Assembly (NCBI RefSeq): GCF_000383475.1
Contig: NZ_KB911459.1
Span: forward strand, 510,467-574,466
Direction of reading: 5' to 3'
DNA: 64,000 nucleotides
Source of the DNA: Microbacterium sp. 11MF
Lineage (GTDB): Bacteria > Actinomycetota > Actinomycetes > Actinomycetales > Microbacteriaceae
A model generated the notes under the pieces. The model was not told the DNA's origin. It worked only from the letters and a program-made list of their open reading frames with translations, and searched no databases. Shown one piece after another: positions 34,244 through 50,668 of the stretch (its first letter is position 1; each line of letters opens with the position of its first letter). The position numbers were made by a program, and so were the translations under genes.

Positions 34244-34990
34244 TCAGCGGTCGGAGTTCTGCGGTTCGTCGAGCAGCGGCAGGTCCGCTGCCGTCACGAG
34301 ACGTGAGAGCACCGCGTGCTCGACCAGGCGCGCGCGGCGGTTGGTGGCGAGCTTCCCGGCGCCGCCGCGGAGCCCCTGCACTCCCTCGCGATCGAACTTG
34401 TCGCACACGTTGTCGAGCTTGCGGTTGAAGGTCGTCAGCGGCCAGCCGAGCCGCTCCGCCGCCTTCGCGGAGGTCGGGATCTGACTCGAGCCCATCATCC
34501 CGCCGCGCAGGATCGGCTCGCAGAGGGCGATCAGAAGCAGGCGCTGGGTGGCCGTGAGGGGGACCGCACCGATCGTCGTCCCGCCGTCCGTGCTATCGCC
34601 GTCCAGCTCCACCGCGCGACCCGTGAAGCGCGCGGCGCCGTTGCGGATCGTGAACTCGTACGTGAACGCGCCGGCGGTGAACATGACGACGAGTTCGGGG
34701 AAGACGAGCGGCACGCGCGTCCCCGGTCCGAGCATCGCCTGGTACGCCCCATCCGAGGTCGCGAGGGCCACCGAGATCGACCGGCCCGTGTTCGTGAGCC
34801 ACCACATGCCCTGCGAGGACTCGATCTCGAGCAGGCGACGGTGCAGGTACGGGTTCGTGTCGATGACGAGGTCGGCGTCCCGTCCGATCGAGAAGGTCTC
34901 TCCGGGCGTCGGGTGGAACCATTCGCCGCAGAACTCGATGCCGAGCTCGGCGGCGTCGGTCTCGGCCGTCATCTCTATGTCTTCCGCCAT
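34244..34990 (-). CDS. FHA-domain protein with C-terminal helix-turn-helix-like domain
   Basis: A 248-residue protein, last gene of the ten-gene operon. Residues about 15-110 are an FHA phospho-threonine-binding domain (GETFSIGRDADLVID, NPYLHRRLLEIES, GMWWLTNTGRSI). Residues about 145-230 look like a winged or LuxR-like DNA-binding region (LTATQRLLLIALCEPILR; IPTSAKAAERLGWPLTTF; RKLDNVCDKF). It is probably the output module that couples kinase signalling to transcription. ATG 34990 overlaps the previous stop by one base (TGATG) and has GGGGGA upstream. The next 61 nt before hrpA contain no strong hairpin. Confidence 0.8.
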   Translation of the reverse strand: MAEDIEMTAETDAAELGIEFCGEWFHPTPGETFSIGRDADLVIDTNPYLHRRLLEIESSQGMWWLTNTGRSISVALATSDGAYQAMLGPGTRVPLVFPELVVMFTAGAFTYEFTIRNGAARFTGRAVELDGDSTDGGTTIGAVPLTATQRLLLIALCEPILRGGMMGSSQIPTSAKAAERLGWPLTTFNRKLDNVCDKFDREGVQGLRGGAGKLATNRRARLVEHAVLSRLVTAADLPLLDEPQNSDR

Positions 34991-35529
34991 CACATTCCCC
35001 CTTGGACGATCACGATGATTCCCCACACGGCGCCCGCCACCACGGCGGCTCCGCCGATCACGACGGCGACGACGCCGCCCCGTCGGGCACGTCGGCGCGT
35101 CCTGCGATCCGGTCCGGTCGGCGGGGAGAGCGGGGCGCGGACGACCTGCGGCGCCGGCTCCGAACGTCGGGGTGCGTAGACGGCGCCGGAGACCAGGGTG
35201 CCCGGCGACGAGGCCGTGCGGGGCGTGTCGGCCCGCCCGTGCGCGACCGCCGGGGACCCGGCATCCCGCACGACACGGCGCTCGGTCACGCGTGTGCCCT
35301 CGCCCGTGCGGCGTTCGGCCACCAGCGTCTCGTCCGCCCGCCGCTCGGCGAGGCGTGTGTCGTCGTCGTCGGCGTCGGCGCGGCGTGCCGCGAGGAGCGT
35401 CTCGTCGTCCGGCACCCGACGCGCGGCGAAGAGCGTCAGGTCGTCGGGCTCGCTGTCCGGCACGCGTGTCCCGCCCCGTCGGTCCGCCCGGTCGGCGCGA
35501 CGCGTGGGGTCGTCGATCGGGTCAGTCAT
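34990..35529 (-). CDS. Tail-anchored protein with tandem threonine-motif repeats (candidate phospho-scaffold)
   Basis: A 179-residue protein with no recognised family. The N-terminal half contains five repeats of about 10-14 residues with the core T-x-x-A/T-x-R-R, at Thr32 (DDLTLFAARR), Thr44 (DDETLLAARR), Thr58 (DDDTRLAERR), Thr68 (ADETLVAERR) and Thr79 (GEGTRVTERR), with degenerate copies at Thr9 and Thr21. The middle is disordered (Ala/Pro/Arg). A very basic stretch (RRTRRRARR) precedes one C-terminal membrane helix (VVAVVIGGAAVVAGAVWGII). Its first 8 nt overlap the PP2C gene, and its stop overlaps the FHA-HTH gene. A multisite kinase substrate and FHA docking tail is the likely role. Confidence 0.75.
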   Translation of the reverse strand: MTDPIDDPTRRADRADRRGGTRVPDSEPDDLTLFAARRVPDDETLLAARRADADDDDTRLAERRADETLVAERRTGEGTRVTERRVVRDAGSPAVAHGRADTPRTASSPGTLVSGAVYAPRRSEPAPQVVRAPLSPPTGPDRRTRRRARRGGVVAVVIGGAAVVAGAVWGIIVIVQGGM

Positions 35530-36373
35530 GGCGCCTCCGGCGCGAGGGGACCGTCTCGACCTCGATCGTGCCCGTGGCCGGTTCGCTCGTGACGAGACCG
35601 CCCGTCGTGTCCTCCAGACGGGGGTGGATGCCGCCGCCCACCACGTCGATGACGATTGCGGTGACGTTGTCCCTGCCGCCGTGCGCGAGCGCCTGCGCGA
35701 TGAGCGCTCCCGTCGTCTGGGCGGGCGAGGCGCCCGTCAACAGTCCGGCGCGGATCGCCTCGTCGGTGATCTCTCCCGACAGGCCGTCCGAACAGATGAG
35801 GAGCCGCTCTCCCGTGACGACCGGCAGCAGCCAGAAGTCGGCCGGGCTGCGCTCGCCGCCGACGGCACGCGTGATGACGTTGCGCCCCTCGAAGGTCGCC
35901 ATGTCCTCGCGCGCGAGGCGACCGGCATCCACCATCTCCTGCGCGATCGAGTGGTCGACCGTGAGCTGCTCGAGGCGCTCGGACAGGAGGCGGTAGACGC
36001 GGGAGTCGCCGATGTTCACGACGAGCCACCGGTTCTCACCGTTCTGCTGCACGGCGATGACGCCCGTGAGCGTCGATCCGGCGCCGCGCGTCGTGCCGCG
36101 GGCGATCTCCTGCACCGACCGGTGCGCGCCCTGGACGGCCTCGGCGACCTCTTCGGGTGCCACGTCGCTCCGACCGACGAAGTCCCGGAACGCGTCGATG
36201 ACCGCGGCCGATGCCAGATCGCCCGCCTCGTGGCCGCCCATGCCGTCGGCGACGAGGAAGACGGGGAAGCTCGCGAGGTGCGAGTCCTCGTTCACGCGAC
36301 GGCGGAGGCCCGTGTCGGTGAGAGCGCCGCTGATGACGTCGAAGGGAGGGAGCGGTCCGGTGGTGGGGGTCAT
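35522..36373 (-). CDS. PP2C-family Ser/Thr phosphatase
   Basis: A 283-residue cytoplasmic phosphatase, presumed antagonist of the kinase at 48393. All metal-binding motifs are intact: RRVNEDS, VADGMGGHEAGDLAS, VVNIGDSRVY, LLICSDGLSGEI and GGRDNVTAIVIDVV. No membrane segment is present, unlike mycobacterial PstP, so it relies on partners for localisation. ATG 36373 overlaps the stop of the FHA membrane protein by 4 nt. The short tail after residue 250 (PRLEDTTGGLVTSEP) is Thr-rich and could itself be phosphorylated. Confidence 0.92.
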   Translation of the reverse strand: MTPTTGPLPPFDVISGALTDTGLRRRVNEDSHLASFPVFLVADGMGGHEAGDLASAAVIDAFRDFVGRSDVAPEEVAEAVQGAHRSVQEIARGTTRGAGSTLTGVIAVQQNGENRWLVVNIGDSRVYRLLSERLEQLTVDHSIAQEMVDAGRLAREDMATFEGRNVITRAVGGERSPADFWLLPVVTGERLLICSDGLSGEITDEAIRAGLLTGASPAQTTGALIAQALAHGGRDNVTAIVIDVVGGGIHPRLEDTTGGLVTSEPATGTIEVETVPSRRRRHD

Positions 36374-37554
36374 CGCGATCCTGCGTCGAGGGTGAGCTCC
36401 GCGTCGCCGAGGAGGAAGCGGCCGGCAAGGGGGACGGGGGTGCCCACGGTGATCTCGGTGTCGCTCGTGCCGACGACCACGCCGTTGGTCGAGGCGAGAT
36501 CGGTGATCGTCCAGGCGTCGCCGGTCCGCCGCAGCAGCGCGTGCGTCTTGGACACCGTCCGGGTCGTGTCGTCGATCGCGATCGGCTGGGCCTCGGGGGC
36601 ATCGGACGGCGGTGCGGGGTTGCGGCCCAGCACGATGGTGTCGGACGTGAGGGCGACGGTCTGTCCGGTGGGCAGACGCAAGGACGCCGCCGGGCGGCGG
36701 TGCGCCGCGAGGACCGTGTGCTCCTCGAGCTCGGTCTGCTCGCCCGGGGCCACCGCGGGCGCCGCCGGGGGAGCGGCGGGCGCGGCCGGCGCCGGCACGG
36801 GTGCGGCGACCGGAGCCAGCGGAGGCGGCGACCAGGGATGGACCGGGACGGATGCCGCGGCCGGCGTCCCGGGCCCCGGTGCTGAGGTCGGGGCCGGGGG
36901 CGCGAACGCGGACGTGTCGGCGGGAACGCCGCGGGTGTCGACGGCGACAGGTTCCGCTGCGAACGGCGTCGGGGGCAGGCCCTTCTGCGGCAGCCCCTGC
37001 CAGCGCGCCGCTCCCCACCCGATCACCGAGGCCCAGACGGGCAGCAGCAGTGCACCGAGGGCGACGAACCCGCCGCCGCGACCGAAACCGCGGTTCAGGG
37101 GGCCCATCATCCGCACCAGGAGGATCACGACGCCGGCGAGGAAGACGAGGAACAGCAGGGTCGGGACGACGGATGCCGCCAGGATCGCGCCCGCTCCATC
37201 GCCGCCGCCGCCGAACGCGGCCTCCTGAGCGGACTGCAGCAGGAGCGATCCTGCGACCGAGGCGATGACGGCGGTGAGGAGGCCGCCGCCCACGATGACC
37301 GCCGCCCACCACCCCTTCATGCCGGCGAGCTCGAAGAGCATCCAGATGTTCAGCACCGGAACCCAGGCGCGACCGCTCGGGAGACCGGCCTTGCGGAACA
37401 CGGCGGCCAGGGCGAGCGAGGTCCAGACGTACACGGCCGCGAGCAGGACGAGCTGCACGAGCACGCCGAGGAGCGACACCGCGAGGGCGCCTCCCACAGT
37501 TCCGGCGGCATCGCCGATCGAGGCCAGCGGGTTCCCCGTCGTCACGCTCAACAT
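36370..37554 (-). CDS. Membrane protein with C-terminal FHA domain (DUF5684-like N-terminus)
   Basis: A 394-residue protein. Residues 15-190 hold four to five membrane helices, including the GRAWVPVLNIWMLFELAG motif of DUF5684/RDD-like proteins. Residues 190-270 are an Ala/Pro-rich linker, and residues about 300-390 an FHA domain (DTIVLGRNPA, VSKTHALL, ITDLASTNGV). Just before the FHA is EEHTVLAAHRR with Thr280 (codon at 36715-36717), matching the repeat motif of the 34990 protein. The frame is open 15 codons upstream, but ATG 37554 with GAGGA is the better start. The 46-nt gap to the transglutaminase-like gene is the largest gap inside the operon. Confidence 0.88.
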   Translation of the reverse strand: MLSVTTGNPLASIGDAAGTVGGALAVSLLGVLVQLVLLAAVYVWTSLALAAVFRKAGLPSGRAWVPVLNIWMLFELAGMKGWWAAVIVGGGLLTAVIASVAGSLLLQSAQEAAFGGGGDGAGAILAASVVPTLLFLVFLAGVVILLVRMMGPLNRGFGRGGGFVALGALLLPVWASVIGWGAARWQGLPQKGLPPTPFAAEPVAVDTRGVPADTSAFAPPAPTSAPGPGTPAAASVPVHPWSPPPLAPVAAPVPAPAAPAAPPAAPAVAPGEQTELEEHTVLAAHRRPAASLRLPTGQTVALTSDTIVLGRNPAPPSDAPEAQPIAIDDTTRTVSKTHALLRRTGDAWTITDLASTNGVVVGTSDTEITVGTPVPLAGRFLLGDAELTLDAGSR

Positions 37555-37600
37555 CTGTCCTCGTCCCTCTTCGACTTCCCTCGGTCCCGCATCGCACACC

Positions 37601-40072
37601 CTATCTGCGGGCGGCCCGTCTGCGCGGCAGCAGGGAGCGCAGCGACAGCCGCGCCCCGAGCCGCGCCCAGAAACCCTTCTCCCCGGCGAACCGGGTGCGC
37701 TCGGCGGCCACGATCCGCCAGAACTCCTCGCTCTCGGCTGCGCTCGGCGGCGAGACGTCGAAGACCGACCGATCCGCCCAGCCGGCCAACCGCCTGCCCG
37801 GCGCCTCGTCGGCCCCGCCGGCGAACAGGCTCGCCAGCTCCTGCCTCGTCAGGTGGGCCGGTGCGGGGTAGCCGTGGTCGACCGCGGTGTCGACGTACTC
37901 CTCCCAGCCGCCGGTGAAGCGCTCCGCGACGTCGCCGCGCCGCCGCCGGTTGCGTCGGCGGACGGCCTTGACCGCCAGGACCGTCACGAGCGGCCCGATC
38001 AGGACGATGACCGCGAGCAGCGACACGCCGCCGATGCGGACGGCAGCCCACACCGCCGACAGGTCGGTCTCGTCCGCGGGCGCCTGCTCGTCCGGCAGGT
38101 CACCGTCGGACGGAGAGGCATCGGCCGGGAGCACCGTGTCCACCTCGTCGCGGCGGACGTCCGTCGGGTTCTCGGGGTCCCGCCGCTGCTGCACATCCGG
38201 CGAGGGGAAGCTGTCGTGCTGCGGCGTCGCATCGACGGGGACCCACTGGCCGGCGGCATCCTGCACCTCGATCCACGCAGCGAGATCGCCGCCGCGGCAC
38301 GAGCCGTCCTCGCAGACGGGCAGGTCCTCGGCTGAGGTGAGACGGGTGCCGACGACGACCCGCGCCTCGAAGCCGAGCTGATCGGCGATCAGCATGGCAG
38401 CGACGGCGAACTGCTCGTCGTCGCCGACGGCGGCGACGAGTTCCGCATCGGAGCGGCCCGGCGCCTCGGCTTCGCGCGTCAGCAGCTGCGTGAACATCGT
38501 CCCGATGCGGTCTGCCGAGTGACCCGCCCGCGACGACTGGAACCCGCTGCCACCGAGGTCCGCCAGCCAGGACGGGGTGTCACCGGTCGGCACCTGCAGG
38601 GCGTGGCTCAGATAACCCCGGGCGCGCAGGCGCTCCACCAGGGTGTCGAGAGCGGCGCCACCGGTGCCCGCGTCCTGCGCCTCGATCCATTCCACGAGCG
38701 AGGCGGGAACGACGTCGGCGCGCAGGGACGGTCCGCTCCGGGCGGGGGTGAGGGATGCCACCGGTTCGGCCTGGCCGTCCGGGACGACCGACAGCCGGTA
38801 CGCGTCGCCCTCGCCCAGACCGGGGTCGGCGAGCTCGATCGCGGCGCCCGTCGCGGCGTTGTGGAAGAACCCATCGGACAGGTCCGTCGCCCGGGTCCCG
38901 TCGAACGCGATGGCGCGGAGGCTGCCGACGGTCGGGACCCAGATGCCCGCGCCCGCTCCCATCCGGACCGAGACGCTCGCCGTGCCGTCGCCGCCGAGGC
39001 TCGAGGGCACGCGGGTGAACGCCGTCGCCGGGTCGGTGGGGCCGGCATCCGGATCGATCGCGCGCACCGTGCGACCGTCGTAGAACGGCAGGGTCGCGAG
39101 GCGCACGCGGTCGATCGTCTCGGGAGCGGCGACCGTGAACAGGACCTGGTCGTAGCGATCGTCCGCGAACGACGCGCGGTAGTCCGCGAGCGGGCTGGGC
39201 GCGCGCTCGAGTTCGAGCACCGGTGCCACCGCCGCCCGCGCCACCTCGCGCGGCTGCCCCGCGAGTGCCCACGGCCCCCAGACGGCCGCAGCGGCGGTCG
39301 CGACGACGACCATCCCCGCCGCGGTCGCCGCGCGGGTGGCGGTGCCGCGCCGCCGGGCGGTCGGGCCCCGACGCATCCCGGTCGCGTCGGCCGCGGTCCG
39401 GAGTGCGCGGCGCCGGTCGTGGGCGGTCCGCCAGACGACGGCGACGAGGGCTGCGGCGACGGACGCCGCGCCGACGAGCGTCTCGGGCTGGAGGGGGACG
39501 GCGCCGACGAGCAGCGGCGCGGCCAGGGTGCGGGCGCCGAAGACCACGCCGAACGCGGTCGGGATGAGCGCCACGGCGACCGCCGGCATCCACACCGTCT
39601 TCGCGCGCCACGCGATCGACAGGGCGGCGACGGTGACGGCGAGGAAGAGCAGGAGCGTCGGCGCGAGGGTCGCCTGGTAGGCGCCGAGCGGCAGGTCGAG
39701 GGTGAGCAGGTCCTTCCACCCGGTGACGGGCGCCGTCGCGACGTCGACGAGGGCGCGGAGCGCCGCACCCGGGGAGGCCAGCGAACCGGATGCCGCGACG
39801 AGAACTCCCAGCGCGACGTATGCGCCCAGCGCGGTGAGGGCGACCCACCATCCCGACCAGCGCCAGCGGGTGCCGACGGCCGCGACGACGTGACCGGCGA
39901 CGATCCCGGCCGTCACCGCGACGATGAACGCGGTGCTCCGGTAGATCGGCCATGCGGCGACCGCTCCCACGGCGAGGACGAGGTCGAGGACGATCGCCTG
40001 GCCGATGAAGAAGCCCGCCCGCGACGGTGCGGGGAGCGGGCGGCGGGCGTCGCGGCGGAGGGGGACGGTCAC
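37601..40072 (-). CDS. Membrane-anchored transglutaminase-like protein lacking the catalytic Cys and His
   Basis: An 823-residue protein with six or more membrane helices in the first 265 residues, an extracytoplasmic domain (about 275-675), one more membrane helix (682-702) and a cytoplasmic tail. The transglutaminase fold is recognisable in GDDEQFAVAAMLIADQLGFE, AAWIEVQDAAGQWVPVDATP. The expected catalytic Cys of GxCxxFA is Asp552, and the His of HAW is Ala598; only the third residue, Asp614, remains. Cys587 and Cys592 could form a local disulfide. GTG 40072 overlaps the DUF58 stop by 4 nt. It is the classic partner of MoxR and DUF58 but is predicted to be enzymatically dead. Confidence 0.85.
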   Translation of the reverse strand: MTVPLRRDARRPLPAPSRAGFFIGQAIVLDLVLAVGAVAAWPIYRSTAFIVAVTAGIVAGHVVAAVGTRWRWSGWWVALTALGAYVALGVLVAASGSLASPGAALRALVDVATAPVTGWKDLLTLDLPLGAYQATLAPTLLLFLAVTVAALSIAWRAKTVWMPAVAVALIPTAFGVVFGARTLAAPLLVGAVPLQPETLVGAASVAAALVAVVWRTAHDRRRALRTAADATGMRRGPTARRRGTATRAATAAGMVVVATAAAAVWGPWALAGQPREVARAAVAPVLELERAPSPLADYRASFADDRYDQVLFTVAAPETIDRVRLATLPFYDGRTVRAIDPDAGPTDPATAFTRVPSSLGGDGTASVSVRMGAGAGIWVPTVGSLRAIAFDGTRATDLSDGFFHNAATGAAIELADPGLGEGDAYRLSVVPDGQAEPVASLTPARSGPSLRADVVPASLVEWIEAQDAGTGGAALDTLVERLRARGYLSHALQVPTGDTPSWLADLGGSGFQSSRAGHSADRIGTMFTQLLTREAEAPGRSDAELVAAVGDDEQFAVAAMLIADQLGFEARVVVGTRLTSAEDLPVCEDGSCRGGDLAAWIEVQDAAGQWVPVDATPQHDSFPSPDVQQRRDPENPTDVRRDEVDTVLPADASPSDGDLPDEQAPADETDLSAVWAAVRIGGVSLLAVIVLIGPLVTVLAVKAVRRRNRRRRGDVAERFTGGWEEYVDTAVDHGYPAPAHLTRQELASLFAGGADEAPGRRLAGWADRSVFDVSPPSAAESEEFWRIVAAERTRFAGEKGFWARLGARLSLRSLLPRRRAARR

Positions 40073-41418
40073 GATCGCCCACCCCTCGCGAGCATCTGTC
40101 GCAGGTCGTCGAGGAGCCCGATCGAGATGACGGTCATGCTCCCGAGGCGCCGGATGCCGGGAGCCGCCGTCGGGTCGCACACGAGGGCGACGACGGCCAC
40201 CTCGGACCCGAAGGCGAGCGCGGCGCTCTGCAGCTGCGTGGGCGTCAGAGTCGATCCGCAGACGAGGAAGGCGATCGAGGCATCCGGATGGCGCCCGGCC
40301 GCGAGCGCTGCGACCTCGCGGAGCGGGCTCGGGTTCTCCCCCCGACCGATGGCGGCGAGGTCGTCGAGGAGGGTCCGCGACGAGATCGTCGTCAGGGTGC
40401 GGAACGTCCGCATGCGGCCTCGCGCGAATTCGGGGATCTCCGCGCCGGCGACGACGTCGACGTCCCGCCCGTCGCGGAGGCCCCGGACGCCGATCGACGC
40501 GGTCGCGCTGACGGCGAGTTCGAACTCGTCGTCGTCGGCGTACTCGTCGCCGCCGAGTCCGAGAACGAGGATCATGCGGGAGCGGCGGGTCTCCTCGTAC
40601 TGACGCACCATCATGGCGCCGGTCTTCGCCGTGGACTTCCAGTGCACCTGGCGTGGTGAGTCGCCCGGGACGTAGGGCCGGAGCGCGTGGAACGAGAAGT
40701 CGGCGTCGACGATCGTCCTCGACGGGCTCCCCTCGAGGTCGCGGATGAGTCCCGTCGCGGTGCTCCGCAACGCCGTCGTCACGGGGTGCACGTAGAGCGT
40801 GCGGGTCTCCTGCCAGGTCGCTTCACGGGTGAGGATGCCGAGGGGGTCCCCGCGCACGGTGCGGGCGGGGCCGACGGTGATGACGCCGCGGCGCAGGGTC
40901 GGGATCGCGACATCCTCGCTGGTCTCGTGGCCAGGGCGCAGCAGCGGCACGGCGACGTCGACGAGGCCGTCGCCGACGGGCAGGTCGACCCGGCCGGGGA
41001 GCGCGACGCGCCGACCGACGTTGGCGACGACGAGGGCACCCTCGACGGGCGTCCCGGCGACGACGCGGTCGTGCTCGAGGCGGAGGGTCACCTCGTAGGC
41101 GCGCGCACCGAACAGGAACGGAACCGAGAGCGCGAGGAGCAGAACGGCCGCCCCGCCCGCCACGGCGAACTCGAGCCAGCCGAGGGCGAGGCCGCACGCG
41201 AGTCCGATGACCGCGACGGCGAGGACGATCCACCCCGCGGGTGCCACGGTCTCGGCGAACCCCCGCGCCGCCCGCGCGCTCGCGCGCCGGAGCCGCCGCC
41301 ATCCGCGCACCCCCCGTACCGCCAGGCGCGTCGTGGCGGGCGCCGAGCCGTAGCCCGTGCGCGTGTATCCCGTCGCGGCGAAGGTGCGGGTGAGGCGGGA
41401 CTCGGTGGAGGAACTCAC
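40069..41418 (-). CDS. DUF58 domain protein (MoxR partner)
   Basis: A 449-residue protein with two membrane helices near residues 60-105 (GWIVLAVAVIGLACGLALGW; AVLLLALSVPFLFG) and the diagnostic DUF58 core FHALRPYVPGDSPRQVHWKS near residue 245. The C-terminal part is the von Willebrand-like portion of the family (MILVLGLGGDEYADDDEFE). DUF58 proteins are encoded next to MoxR ATPases across bacteria and are thought to be chaperoned or remodelled by them. GTG 41418 overlaps the MoxR stop by 4 nt (GTGA), and the frame upstream of it is a MoxR shadow. Confidence 0.92.
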   Translation of the reverse strand: MSSSTESRLTRTFAATGYTRTGYGSAPATTRLAVRGVRGWRRLRRASARAARGFAETVAPAGWIVLAVAVIGLACGLALGWLEFAVAGGAAVLLLALSVPFLFGARAYEVTLRLEHDRVVAGTPVEGALVVANVGRRVALPGRVDLPVGDGLVDVAVPLLRPGHETSEDVAIPTLRRGVITVGPARTVRGDPLGILTREATWQETRTLYVHPVTTALRSTATGLIRDLEGSPSRTIVDADFSFHALRPYVPGDSPRQVHWKSTAKTGAMMVRQYEETRRSRMILVLGLGGDEYADDDEFELAVSATASIGVRGLRDGRDVDVVAGAEIPEFARGRMRTFRTLTTISSRTLLDDLAAIGRGENPSPLREVAALAAGRHPDASIAFLVCGSTLTPTQLQSAALAFGSEVAVVALVCDPTAAPGIRRLGSMTVISIGLLDDLRQMLARGGRS

Positions 41419-42404
41419 ACGTTCTCTCGCTGACCGCGTTCGTCGAGACGCTCGCCCGACGGCGGGACGACGTCGAGGAGGACCTGCCCGATGACCGCCT
41501 CGGCCGTGACGCCGTCGAACTCGGCTTCGGGGTCGAGGATCAGACGGTGCGCGAGCACGGGCACGGCGAGCGCCTTGACGTCGTCGGGGGTGACGTAGGT
41601 GCGGCCGTGGGCCAGCGCCCACGTGCGCGACGCCTTCGTGAGCGCGAGTGCTCCTCGGACGCTGACCCCCAGCCGCACCTCGCGCGCGAGGCGGGTGGCG
41701 TCGACCACGCGCGCGATGTAGTCGAGGACGAGCGGGTTCAGGTATCCGCCGCGGGCGATGTCGGCCATGCTGACGATCCCCTGCGGGGTGATGACGGGGG
41801 AGACCTCCCGCGTCGCATCGCCGGAGCCCTCGAGGATGCGGATCGTGGCGGCGCGATCCGGGTAGCCGAGCGAGGTCTTCAGCAGGAAGCGGTCGAGCTG
41901 CGCCTCGGGGAGCCGGTAGGTGCCGGCCTGCTCGACCGGGTTCTGCGTCGCCACGACGAGGAACGGGACGGGTACGTCCCGCGTGACGCCGTCGACCGTG
42001 ACGTGACCCTCCTCCATCACTTCGAGGAGCGCCGACTGCGTCTTGGGCGATGCGCGGTTGATCTCGTCGGCGAGGACGACGTTCGCGAAGATCGGCCCCT
42101 GGTGGAACTCGAACTCGCCCCGGCGCTGGTCGTACACCGTGATGCCCGTGACGTCACCGGGGAGGAGGTCGGGGGTGAACTGGATGCGGGACGCCGTCCC
42201 CTGTACCGATCGCCCCATCGCGCGCGCCAACGACGTCTTGCCGGTACCGGGGTAGTCCTCGAGCAGGAGGTGACCCTCGGACACCATCGTGGTGAACGCG
42301 AGTTCGATCACGTGCCGTTTGCCGAGCACGACCTGCTCCACGTTGTCGACGAGCGTGGTGAAGGTCTCGGCGAACCAGGCGCTCTGCTCCTGGGTGATCG
42401 TCAT
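41415..42404 (-). CDS. MoxR-type AAA+ ATPase
   Basis: A 329-residue MoxR chaperone ATPase with Walker A DYPGTGKTSLA, Walker B VVLADEINRASPKTQSALLE, sensor 1 VVATQNPVEQ and the arginine-finger region LPEAQLDRFLLK. The C-terminal lid includes VRLGVSVRGALALTKASR. MoxR proteins are believed to help assemble or activate partner complexes, here most likely DUF58, the transglutaminase-like protein and the giant surface protein made from the same message. GAGAGG lies 6 nt before ATG 42404. Confidence 0.95.
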   Translation of the reverse strand: MTITQEQSAWFAETFTTLVDNVEQVVLGKRHVIELAFTTMVSEGHLLLEDYPGTGKTSLARAMGRSVQGTASRIQFTPDLLPGDVTGITVYDQRRGEFEFHQGPIFANVVLADEINRASPKTQSALLEVMEEGHVTVDGVTRDVPVPFLVVATQNPVEQAGTYRLPEAQLDRFLLKTSLGYPDRAATIRILEGSGDATREVSPVITPQGIVSMADIARGGYLNPLVLDYIARVVDATRLAREVRLGVSVRGALALTKASRTWALAHGRTYVTPDDVKALAVPVLAHRLILDPEAEFDGVTAEAVIGQVLLDVVPPSGERLDERGQRENV

Positions 42405-48392: not shown

Positions 48393-49550
48393 TCAGCCCG
48401 CTCCGCCGAGGAGGAAGAACGTGGTGGCGGCGCCCGCCAGGGTGAGCGCGACGCCCGCGCCGACGGCGAGGGCGATCACGGCGGTGCGACTCAGCCGCGG
48501 CGCGGGCTCGGCGCCTGCGAGGATGGTGCCCTCGTCGGGGCGACGGGGAGGGCCAGACTTGCGACGCGCGGGCCGGGCCGACTCGTACGCGACGCTCGGA
48601 CGCACCGGACCGCGCAGGCGGTCATCGTCGAAGTCGACGGTCGCCCCGGCTGCGGCCCACTCGTCGACGGCGACTTCGAGGGGAGTGTGGGGGAGCCCCA
48701 TCTGGTGCTGGATGAGCTGCAGGTCGTGAGCGAAGGCCGCGGCGGACGGATGCCGGGCGGCGGGGTCCCGGCTCAGGGCGCGGGCGAGGACGGCGTCCAC
48801 CTCGGCGGGGACGTCGGGGCGACCGACGGGCGTGTACACCGCTTTGCGGATCCGCGCCTTGAGCTGGTCGCGGGTGTTCTGGCCGCGGCCGGAGCGCTCG
48901 AAGGGACTGCGGCCGGCGAGCAGCGAGTACACGGTGGCGCCCAGACTCCAGACCTCGGCCGCGATGGAACCCGAGACCCGCTCGTCGACGATCTCGGGCG
49001 CCGACCACGGCACGGACATCGCGAACACCTCCTCGGCGTCCGGTCGGGCCTCGACGGCGGCGGCGATGCCGAAATCCGAGAGGACGGGCGAACCGAAGGC
49101 GGTGACGAGGATGTTCGACGGCTTGATGTCCCGGTGCAGGAGCCCGGCGCGGTGGGCGGTCTCGAGTGCGGAGCCGATCTTCACCCCGAGCTGCAGCACC
49201 TCGGCGACGGGGATCTCCTCGCGCCGGTAGCGGTGGGTGAGCGAGGTCGGGCAGTACTCCATCACGAGGTAGGGGCGTCCGTCGGCCGACACGGATGCCT
49301 CGTGGATCGTGAGGATCGAGGGGTGGGCGCTGAGGCGGGCCATGACATCGGCTTCGGCGTTGAACATGCGCAGCACGTTCTCGTCGACGACGTCTTCGAG
49401 GAGGACCTTCACGGCCACCGGGCGCCGCGGCAGGTTCTGCTCGAACAGGAAGACGTCGGCGAAACCTCCGGCACCCAGCGGACGGACGTACGTGAACCCC
49501 GAGAGACCGGGTGGCGTGGACGGAAGCCTGTGGGACACGCGGTCGGTCAT
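48393..49550 (-). CDS. Transmembrane Ser/Thr protein kinase
   Basis: A 385-residue Hanks-type kinase with glycine loop LGAGGFADVF (26-34), catalytic Lys48 (PVAVKVL), HRDIKPSN (139-146), DFG (159-161) and APE (184-186). The usual GTP-x-YMAPE stretch reads SVPWSAPE and the activation loop is acidic (PDAEEVF). After the kinase domain, a basic linker with DEGTILAG (Thr342, codon 48525-48527) leads into one membrane helix (355-382) and almost no extracellular part, so it has no sensor domain of its own. The adjoining giant protein could supply sensing. ATG 49550 overlaps the FHA gene by 4 nt; the frame upstream is a shadow. Confidence 0.93.
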   Translation of the reverse strand: MTDRVSHRLPSTPPGLSGFTYVRPLGAGGFADVFLFEQNLPRRPVAVKVLLEDVVDENVLRMFNAEADVMARLSAHPSILTIHEASVSADGRPYLVMEYCPTSLTHRYRREEIPVAEVLQLGVKIGSALETAHRAGLLHRDIKPSNILVTAFGSPVLSDFGIAAAVEARPDAEEVFAMSVPWSAPEIVDERVSGSIAAEVWSLGATVYSLLAGRSPFERSGRGQNTRDQLKARIRKAVYTPVGRPDVPAEVDAVLARALSRDPAARHPSAAAFAHDLQLIQHQMGLPHTPLEVAVDEWAAAGATVDFDDDRLRGPVRPSVAYESARPARRKSGPPRRPDEGTILAGAEPAPRLSRTAVIALAVGAGVALTLAGAATTFFLLGGAG

Positions 49551-50668
49551 CCCGCCGTCGAGGGGTCGAGCACATCGAACACCGCGGTCACGCCGTCGCC
49601 GAGGTCGAGCTCGGTCCCGAGCGGCACCCGCGACGCCGCGCCGCCGCGCAGGAGCGCCGCGGCGCCCGTCGGCGGACGCACGATCGTCCCGTTCGTCGAG
49701 TCGAGGTCGCGGACCACGAGGGTCGTCCCGTCGAGCACCACTTCGAGGTGCGTGCCCGAGATCTCCTTGTGCGGCGAGGAGACGCGTTCGATGCGCGCAC
49801 CGGCGTGACCGGCCTGCCGCGGGCCGCGCCCGAGGATCACGGGCCGGTCGAGGGGGACCGTCCGCCCGCCGGGAAGGCGCAGGCCGTAGACCGCCCCGGT
49901 TGCGGCGCGACGCGAGCCGAAGAGGGTGCGTTCGTCGGGGAGGTCCCCGCCGTCGTGGCGCTGGTCGTCCTCGCGCAGGAAGTCGGGCAGCTCGAGCTCG
50001 TCGTCGTCCTCGAAGAGCCGGGCGAACAGGCTGCGGTCGACCGAGATCGTCTGTAGGACGTCGATCTCCTCGTCGCGGGGAGTCTGAGCGGGCGCTGCGG
50101 GTGCGGGCCGGACGGGCGGCGTGATCGTGGGGACGGCGACGGTGACGGGCGCAAGGGTGCCGGGGGGTTCTTCGCCCTCGGCGGCGGGCGTCACCTCGGC
50201 GTCGGGCTCGCGGCCCGCGGGGAAGGGGCGCCCCCACGACAGTTCGTCGGCGCGGGTGACCCCGAGCCCGAGGGGCAGCAGGTCGCCGCCCGTCGCGCCG
50301 GCGTCGAGGGCGAGACGGATGCCGACGGCCCCCGCGAGCGCCGTCTCGATCCAGGTCCGCGCATCGGCCCCGGACACGCGCGTGCGATCGGAGGTCTCGA
50401 CGATGGCGGCGCCGCGGACGGCCACGCGCACCGGCTGCGCGTCGTCGTCGGGGAACTCCGCGATCGCGAAGTCGGGCAGGTCGTGGATGCCGCCCGCCAC
50501 GAGCACGCTCAGGACGTCCTCGAGGACCGCCGTGTCGGCGACGGCCGAGTTCCACAGCCGCGCGATGACACCCTCGGTGACGCCCGATCCGAGGAGGATG
50601 GCGAACCGATCGCCGGCGATGGCGTACCCCGACTCGGCGGCGAGCGTCGGGGTGGGGTATCGGAACAC
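49547..50668 (-). CDS. FHA-domain protein, first gene of the signalling operon
   Basis: A 373-residue cytoplasmic protein. Residues 1-140 form an unrecognised alpha/beta domain (YAIAGDRFAILLGSG; VLSVLVAGGIHDLPDFAI), residues 150-240 an acidic, disordered linker, and residues about 260-370 an FHA domain (RPVILGRGPR, KEISGTHLEV, VVRDLDSTNGTIV). Immediately before the FHA is DERTLFGSRR with Thr248 (codon 49925-49927), the same motif as in the 34990 repeat protein. This resembles GarA/OdhI, where a phospho-Thr N-terminal to an FHA domain is bound intramolecularly. GTG 50668 lies 6 nt after a TAGGCT box, so this is the operon's leaderless first gene. Confidence 0.88.
   Translation of the reverse strand: MFRYPTPTLAAESGYAIAGDRFAILLGSGVTEGVIARLWNSAVADTAVLEDVLSVLVAGGIHDLPDFAIAEFPDDDAQPVRVAVRGAAIVETSDRTRVSGADARTWIETALAGAVGIRLALDAGATGGDLLPLGLGVTRADELSWGRPFPAGREPDAEVTPAAEGEEPPGTLAPVTVAVPTITPPVRPAPAAPAQTPRDEEIDVLQTISVDRSLFARLFEDDDELELPDFLREDDQRHDGGDLPDERTLFGSRRAATGAVYGLRLPGGRTVPLDRPVILGRGPRQAGHAGARIERVSSPHKEISGTHLEVVLDGTTLVVRDLDSTNGTIVRPPTGAAALLRGGAASRVPLGTELDLGDGVTAVFDVLDPSTAG

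Follow-up and report, generated by a model that had tools for sequence, protein, structure and literature searches.

The PFNA operon of Bifidobacterium is reported to contain pkb2, fn3, aaa-atp, duf58, tgm, prpC, a seventh gene and fha, and the seventh gene, which follows the phosphatase gene, is described there as being without known function (PMC8430577). In the kinase-FHA switches met in the parts of the literature surveyed, there is either one phosphorylation site or motif, or the sites and the FHA domains are held in one protein. GarA carries a Thr motif in the N-terminal tail before its FHA domain, which is phosphorylated by protein kinases (PMC12321487). In Rv1747 of M. tuberculosis, the FHA domains and a disordered linker are described to phase-separate and to form membrane nanoclusters, a process promoted by PknF and reversed by PstP (PMC9312465). 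In the type VI secretion system of Agrobacterium, a kinase-phosphorylated Thr of TssL is bound by Fha, which activates secretion (PMC3953482), and in DgcB of Bdellovibrio the N-terminal pTSIV tail is bound by the FHA domain of the same protein (PMC6733907).

The window analyzed here is a stretch of 64,000 nucleotides of Microbacterium sp. 11MF (contig NZ_KB911459.1, positions 510,467 to 574,466). It encodes a small protein with five Thr-containing units ahead of a C-terminal membrane helix, which we named the array protein, together with two FHA proteins (FHA1 and FHA2) that share the layout of GarA and OdhI, with a Thr motif ahead of the FHA domain (PMC12321487). GarA is described with one ETTS motif in the same protein, whereas the array has five units of another sequence in a separate membrane protein. 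Similarly, Rv1747 combines FHA domains and linker in one transporter, whereas the array consists of separate tandem sites with their own membrane helix. TssL is, as the anchored array would be, an inner-membrane protein with a Thr phosphosite (PMC3953482), but as described it has one such Thr (Thr14), no repeat, and is unrelated to the array protein. The likeness of DgcB lies in the hydrophobic residues that follow the pThr (PMC6733907). DgcB differs, as far as its description goes, in being a diguanylate cyclase with a single site that acts in cis. Among eukaryotic proteins, the repeats of MDC1 are read by NBS1 through its FHA domain. The SDTD region of MDC1 is phosphorylated and acidic and binds NBS1 (PMC6858307); its units are of the pSer-pThr type, and in the account given the protein lacks a membrane anchor and is unrelated to the array. 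In the motif reported for mycobacterial kinases, the Thr is preceded by acidic residues and position +3 is taken by a large hydrophobic residue (PMC6888350). The array units, with Ala, Ser or Val at +3, are similar to it but not identical. A text search of PMC5549992 for linker sites gave no match, and no array of such a design was found in the listed titles and abstract openings of the open-licence literature. The class of mechanism is already known; it is for a dedicated, fused and copy-variable array that we found no name in these titles and abstract openings.

Organization of the gene cluster

The cluster is transcribed from high to low coordinates in the order FHA1, kinase A, Ig-like, MoxR, DUF58, transglutaminase-like, FHA2, PP2C, array gene, FHA3 and a long helicase-like gene at the end (Table 1). 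Its core gene set and order, from the kinase through the FHA gene, are similar to those of the PFNA operon as described (PMC8430577). Pfam identifies a kinase, MoxR (AAA_3), DUF58, Transglut_core, PP2C and two FHA domains in the window. An earlier note on this DNA had placed the array gene between a PP2C gene and an FHA gene, in an operon with a Ser/Thr kinase, and had counted three FHA domains. The PP2C and kinase assignments agree with Pfam, but the downstream gene, FHA3, is without a Pfam FHA match, and the recognised domains number two, in FHA1 and FHA2. The array gene begins within the PP2C gene, with 8 nt in common, and its stop codon shares letters with the start codon of the gene that follows (TGATG), an arrangement suggestive of translational coupling.

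Table 1. Features of the array gene and its cluster, in coordinates of the window. Residue numbers refer to the array protein.
Feature	Coordinates	Strand	Remarks
FHA1, canonical FHA domain protein	49547..50668	-	Pfam
FHA1, single motif copy DERTLFGSRR before FHA domain	49907..49936	-	
Ser/Thr kinase A, C-terminal membrane helix, candidate writer	48393..49556	-	Pfam
Kinase A, juxtamembrane tail, motif front half DEGTILAG	48513..48536	-	no Arg pair
Large Ig-like protein, 1982 aa	42444..48392	-	label from reading of the sequence alone
MoxR ATPase, DUF58 and transglutaminase-like genes of PFNA-like core	37601..42404	-	Pfam
FHA2, DUF5684 region and canonical FHA domain	36370..37599	-	Pfam
FHA2, single copy of close motif form, LEEHTVLAAHRR, one residue longer	36694..36729	-	just before FHA domain
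PP2C phosphatase, candidate eraser	35522..36373	-	Pfam
Array protein, Thr array, C-terminally membrane-anchored	34990..35529	-	179 aa; no Pfam/NCBIfam match
Array, five T-x-x-[A/T]-x-R-R units (residues 29-85)	35275..35445	-	
Unit 1, Thr32, DDLTLFAARR	35416..35445	-	
Unit 2, Thr44, DDETLLAARR	35380..35409	-	
Unit 3, Thr58, DDDTRLAERR	35338..35367	-	
Unit 4, Thr68, ADETLVAERR	35308..35337	-	
Unit 5, Thr79, GEGTRVTERR	35275..35304	-	
Conserved Y-x-x-R element, YAPRR, residue 118	35164..35178	-	
Basic stretch RRTRRRARR (residues 142-150)	35080..35106	-	before membrane helix
Predicted membrane helix (residues 153-175)	35005..35073	-	sequence, hydropathy
FHA3, unannotated, not a recognised FHA domain	34244..34990	-	low-confidence model

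Features of the array protein

The five core repeats, which the earlier note had read at Thr32, Thr44, Thr58, Thr68 and Thr79, lie exactly at these positions, and in 100,000 shuffles of the protein five units were never reached (shuffled mean 0.10, maximum 3). The basic run and the one C-terminal membrane helix described in the same note are both present; the hydrophobic helix is 23 residues long and stops 4 residues short of the C-terminus. With this single C-terminal helix and the basic residues ahead of it, the protein may be tail-anchored, with a presumed cytoplasmic N-terminus. The array protein matched 0 Pfam families at E 0.001 and 0 NCBIfam families at E 0.1.

A strict DNA pattern of the unit was also used to search the own genome, giving 12 matches, three of them in the array gene, versus one for a reversed-pattern control. 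The other nine were not taken as further targets, because their frames look non-coding by eye.

Array homologues in the Microbacterium clade

A direct search with the array protein gave matches in no more than 8 of 119 genus genomes (own genome among them), and FHA3 was used as the anchor instead. The clade was defined as the 29 of 366 genus genomes, own included, that match FHA3 at E 1e-90 or better. The PFNA-like core order was met in the window and in 27 of the 28 other clade loci, the 28th (L164) being cut off; among the matches listed, M. oleivorans is the one confirmed match in named genomes, and it is syntenic. A side observation concerns L084, where the Ig-like gene of G059 aligns as two pieces at neighbouring positions and may be frameshifted or split.

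An array tail is located directly upstream of FHA3 in all 29 clade genomes, either as a stand-alone protein (15 genomes, window included) or fused in frame to a kinase (14 genomes). A membrane helix is common to all 29 tails, as is a Y-x2/3-R element located 61-70 residues before the C-terminal end. Core units vary in number between genomes, from 0 to 9 per tail, a variation that the earlier note had proposed to check between strains. Near loss of the array also occurs, as the core pattern finds no unit in G008 and G536 and a single one in G097. Even between G448 and G449, whose clusters are nearly identical, the pattern matches differ (6 and 8, respectively); as one match of G449 is located in another part of the tail, the comparison is of 6 with 7 units. 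For searches beyond the clade we used a scan rule of at least three motifs plus a terminal helix, which recovers 25 of the 29 clade genes, including that of the window.

Array homologues outside the clade

A DUF58 search of 218 genomes of the order gave 27 places outside the clade at E 1e-95 or better, and all were fetched, as 14 and then 13. Among the first 14, 11 have at least three units and a terminal helix and two more have two units; no array protein was found in L201. Two of the later 13 are cut by a contig end; of the 11 left, six satisfy the scan rule and four have two units, and no array protein was found in L230, which has a different gene order. An array homologue, with at least two units and a terminal helix, is therefore present in 23 of 25 assessable outside clusters (13/14 and 10/11), although in six of the 23 proteins (L198, L210, L218, L224, L226 and L227) the pattern finds two units only. 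The gene lies directly after PP2C in 19 of these clusters and directly after FHA2 in three (L198, L200 and L218, without a PP2C match at that place), and in one it is fused to PP2C. The genomes belong to the same genus, to the same family and to another family of the order. Judged from sequence, the array family extends beyond the genome of Microbacterium sp. 11MF. The idea that the array gene is a mere left-over kinase tail was dropped, because the clusters outside the clade have the stand-alone form.

The scan rule had no match in 488 kb of own-genome background (26 stretches), in 12 clusters belonging to a second type (L090-L100 and L165) or in L212-L217; its one clear false positive is a frame on the antisense strand of L219. 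The own-genome member of the second type, L165 (contig C2, 225-242 kb), is a related cluster with MoxR, DUF58, transglutaminase-like, PP2C, FHA and kinase genes. In L214-L217, which appear to resemble Bifidobacterium and the PFNA type, no Thr array with a membrane helix was found, and the first gene called after PP2C in L214-L216 encodes a different protein of 219-266 aa.

Conservation of the threonine within the units

The 29 clade tails were analyzed in a leave-one-out manner, with four motif positions fixed and the fifth left free. Thr occupies its position in all but one of the matches (109/110; 93/94 distinct windows), as does an acidic residue at -2 (109/110); L/I/V/M at +2 (109/116), Arg at +5 (109/120) and A/S at +3 (109/131) follow. 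Loss of the Thr with retention of the rest of the repeat, which the earlier note had named as evidence against its proposal, was thus seen once in 94 distinct windows. A looser test, requiring two acidic residues in the preceding four, L/I/V/M at +2 and Arg at +5, gave Thr in 102 of 120 distinct windows, compared with 9% Thr in shuffled tails, and 15 of the 18 non-Thr windows are shifted readings of a unit. Outside the clade, Thr is present in 42 of 45 leave-one-out matches from 12 proteins of 12 loci (L198 left out; L200 and L203 untrimmed).

Among 125 distinct DNA units, the Thr codons are ACC (71), ACG (47), ACA (6) and ACT (1); this count is conditioned on Thr, acidic -2 and Arg +5, so that only the synonymous variety is informative. 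As the codons differ between units, the repeats do not result only from recent copying. This bears on the reading of the array as an unselected slippage product, drifting as a low-complexity repeat in a linker. Such drift would fit the copy-number change between genomes as close as G448 and G449, but it is strongly disfavoured, to the point of being very improbable, by the invariance of the Thr in spite of synonymous codon differences, by the presence of the array in another family of the order and by its absence, by the scan rule, from the own-genome background.

Fusion of the array to kinase and phosphatase

Among the 14 kinase-fused arrays of the clade, five kinases keep HRD and DFG and nine are degenerate. 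In eight of the latter, His-Gly-Arg replaces His-Arg-Asp and GFD replaces DFG; the ninth, in G560, has HGD and GFE. All 14 fused kinases group together in a quick tree (SH-aLRT 97), and neither kinase A nor the second-type kinases fall within this clade. A quick tree of four cluster proteins, for which G503 offers too little data to be placed, shows kinase-bearing genomes in both branches of the earliest split within the clade. The simplest history would accordingly be one fusion and three losses, in the group of ten to which the window belongs, in G402, and in G340/G097/G008/G536; horizontal transfer may provide an alternative. G560 groups with the pseudokinases in the kinase tree but with the intact-kinase genomes in the cluster tree, a conflict that could be due to long-branch error or transfer.

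Outside the clade, L228 (14938-16302) encodes PP2C, four DDATVV units and a helix in one frame of 454 aa; being a single genome, it might reflect an assembly error. The fusions of such tails to kinases and to a PP2C constitute the best sequence evidence that both enzymes act on the array. They also bear on a reading in which the motif is a phospho-independent docking or assembly element for the MoxR, DUF58, transglutaminase-like or Ig-like protein. Such an element would be expected to be enriched in the cluster, as the motif is (see below), and to travel with the whole cluster, as the array gene does; moreover, bifidobacterial Pkb2 is reported to phosphorylate MoxR, so that other wiring is possible (PMC8430577). 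Still, it is Thr that is kept, rather than Ser, Val or Ile, and the fusions found are to kinase and PP2C, and we regard this reading as quite improbable.

A motif shared with FHA1, FHA2 and kinase A

A feature absent from the earlier note is that the motif is common to four proteins of the cluster, namely the array protein, FHA1, FHA2 and kinase A. In FHA2 it stands out as a conserved island within an otherwise variable linker rich in Pro and Ala, some 30 residues ahead of the Gly-Arg of the FHA domain, and its Thr is kept in 29 of 29 clade genomes. In FHA1 the motif was observed in 23 of the 24 sequences found, that of G560 being a fragment; in five genomes no FHA1 was found at that place, for at least four of them because the retrieved sequence starts close to or within kinase A. 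The tail of kinase A has GT[IV]LAG, without the Arg pair, in all 28 genomes examined. Outside the clade, the motif was found by pattern in 17 of 24 clusters with an FHA2 match (11/14 and 6/10). The FHA gene of L215, in a Bifidobacterium-like cluster, has DWDSTVLSPSF shortly before its FHA domain, like FHA2.

The specificity of the motif was assessed in the own genome with script-made gene calls and a sample of the rest of the genome. Motif B, the front half with the hydrophobic core, occurs in four of the 10 cluster proteins, compared with 5 of 434 in the background and none of the 99 proteins encoded at the other kinase and FHA loci; for motif A, with the Arg pair, the corresponding numbers are 3, 1 and 2. 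These counts depend on the pattern, since the kinase tail of L165 has similar motifs (acidic-T-R-V-R and acidic-T-I-V-R) that neither motif counts. In the kinases adjoining FHA3 in other Microbacteriaceae (L090-L100), the linker that follows the kinase domain contains acidic-T-[RV]-[VIL]-R by pattern in 10 of 11 cases. This linker motif is possibly an older form of the array unit.

Both FHA1 and FHA2, the candidate readers, have retained Gly-Arg, Ser, His and Ser-Thr-Asn-Gly, the residues by which FHA domains hold phosphothreonine. FHA2 is not itself a GarA/OdhI protein by profile, as it scores 21.8 versus the OdhI equivalog cut-off of 200, and its motif is EEHTVLAA, not ETTS.

The motif in these linkers is also relevant to the reading of the array as a charge switch, in which phosphorylation would alter the contact of the tail with the membrane surface or the basic stretch without any reader domain. 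The alternation of acidic and basic residues and the basic run ahead of the helix agree with it; conservation of a hydrophobic +2 position (109/116 matches), however, points to recognition and not to charge alone, and the motif also has copies in the linkers of the FHA proteins. We consider it of low probability.

Within the same genome, the FHA2 motif resembles the array units more than expected (likeness 0.41 versus 0.31, 37 genomes). In a test that ignores kinship, and from which genomes lacking either motif, and a further 13 loci, are left out, permutations as high were obtained in 0 of 20,000 cases for the 37 genomes, 30 of 20,000 for the 10 outside genomes and 148 of 20,000 for the 27 clade genomes. 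This co-variation helps to evaluate a further reading, in which the array is a phospho-sink or decoy that titrates the kinase or PP2C and sets a threshold without FHA docking. Tandem similar sites in variable copy number, fused to a kinase in 14 genomes and to PP2C in one, are what such a sink could look like. A sink would need neither the close motif form kept as a single copy beside FHA domains nor the co-variation of the array and FHA2 motifs, and we consider it unlikely, though the least unlikely of the rival readings.

Proposed function of the array

The reading we prefer, with a probability of about 0.64, is that the array protein is a multisite substrate of the kinase and PP2C and serves as a membrane docking array for canonical FHA proteins. 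A motif array placed before a membrane anchor, and fused in relatives to a kinase or a phosphatase, is probably a membrane platform switched by Thr phosphorylation. Docking is proposed on account of the phosphothreonine-holding residues kept in FHA1 and FHA2 and of the literature precedents. The array protein would be a disordered, cytoplasmic substrate of the Ser/Thr kinase of the cluster, with its C-terminal helix as the membrane anchor. Every [D/E]-x-T-x-[L/I/V]-[A/S]-x-R unit would offer the kinase one site, from which PP2C would remove the phosphate; once phosphorylated, the units would bind FHA2 and FHA1 through their canonical FHA domains. How many FHA proteins gather near the membrane proteins of the cluster would then depend on how many units are phosphorylated, with the presumed clustering and biological output. 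As FHA2, FHA1 and kinase A each hold one close copy of the motif, such cis copies, comparable to that of GarA, would probably compete with the units in trans, which would create a threshold. The proposal of the earlier note, a multisite phospho-switch that could gather FHA proteins at the membrane in proportion to kinase activity, is supported in part, by the retained Thr, the variable unit number, the fusions and the motif copies beside the two canonical FHA domains. Points that weigh against the preferred reading are the near loss of units in G008, G536 and G097, the outside proteins with two units and the clusters L201 and L230 in which none was found, the presence of the FHA2 motif in only 17 of 24 outside clusters, the lack of an array in L214-L217, the pattern dependence of the specificity counts and the residue at +3.

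On these sequence comparisons, the array is best read as an unannotated variant of the bacterial kinase-FHA switch. We see an even chance that it represents an undescribed family of membrane-anchored phospho-Thr arrays, in which a short motif present once in each FHA protein and in the kinase is multiplied in a scaffold of its own. This scaffold would have been joined to the kinase in one lineage and to PP2C in another; in the former, the kinase would have decayed to a pseudokinase or disappeared although the array persisted, with copy number acting as an evolvable gain control of the FHA switch. If the docking reading is true, the dose and threshold questions of multisite phosphorylation would become directly testable in bacteria, with a tandem-site scaffold of natural copy variation that lies beside its own kinase, phosphatase and FHA candidates. 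It would also offer a handle on the role of PFNA-like clusters and a motif predicting kinase targets there.

The neighbouring genes FHA3 and PP2C

The suggestion that the gene downstream of the array encodes an FHA partner was not borne out, as Pfam finds no FHA domain in FHA3, and none of 20 homologues gives an FHA match at E 1. No PDB relative of FHA3 was found either. A Foldseek search with the FHA3 model placed an FHA domain at rank 1 (E 0.049), with no match at E 0.001, a hint too weak to retain FHA3 as a phospho-Thr reader. The family itself has no Pfam match above the cut-off and is well conserved, with matches in 75 of 119 genus genomes and 75 of 199 family genomes (E 0.001). The model (AF2 from two sequences, mean pLDDT 44.3) has a beta-rich front and a helical back, and FHA3 may perhaps consist of an FHA-like domain and a DNA-binding domain.

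As to PP2C, several of its tails (L202-L208; near 35522-35570 in the window) finish with DATT-, DDDT- or ETVP-like sequences and then Arg, which may represent a further copy of the signal.
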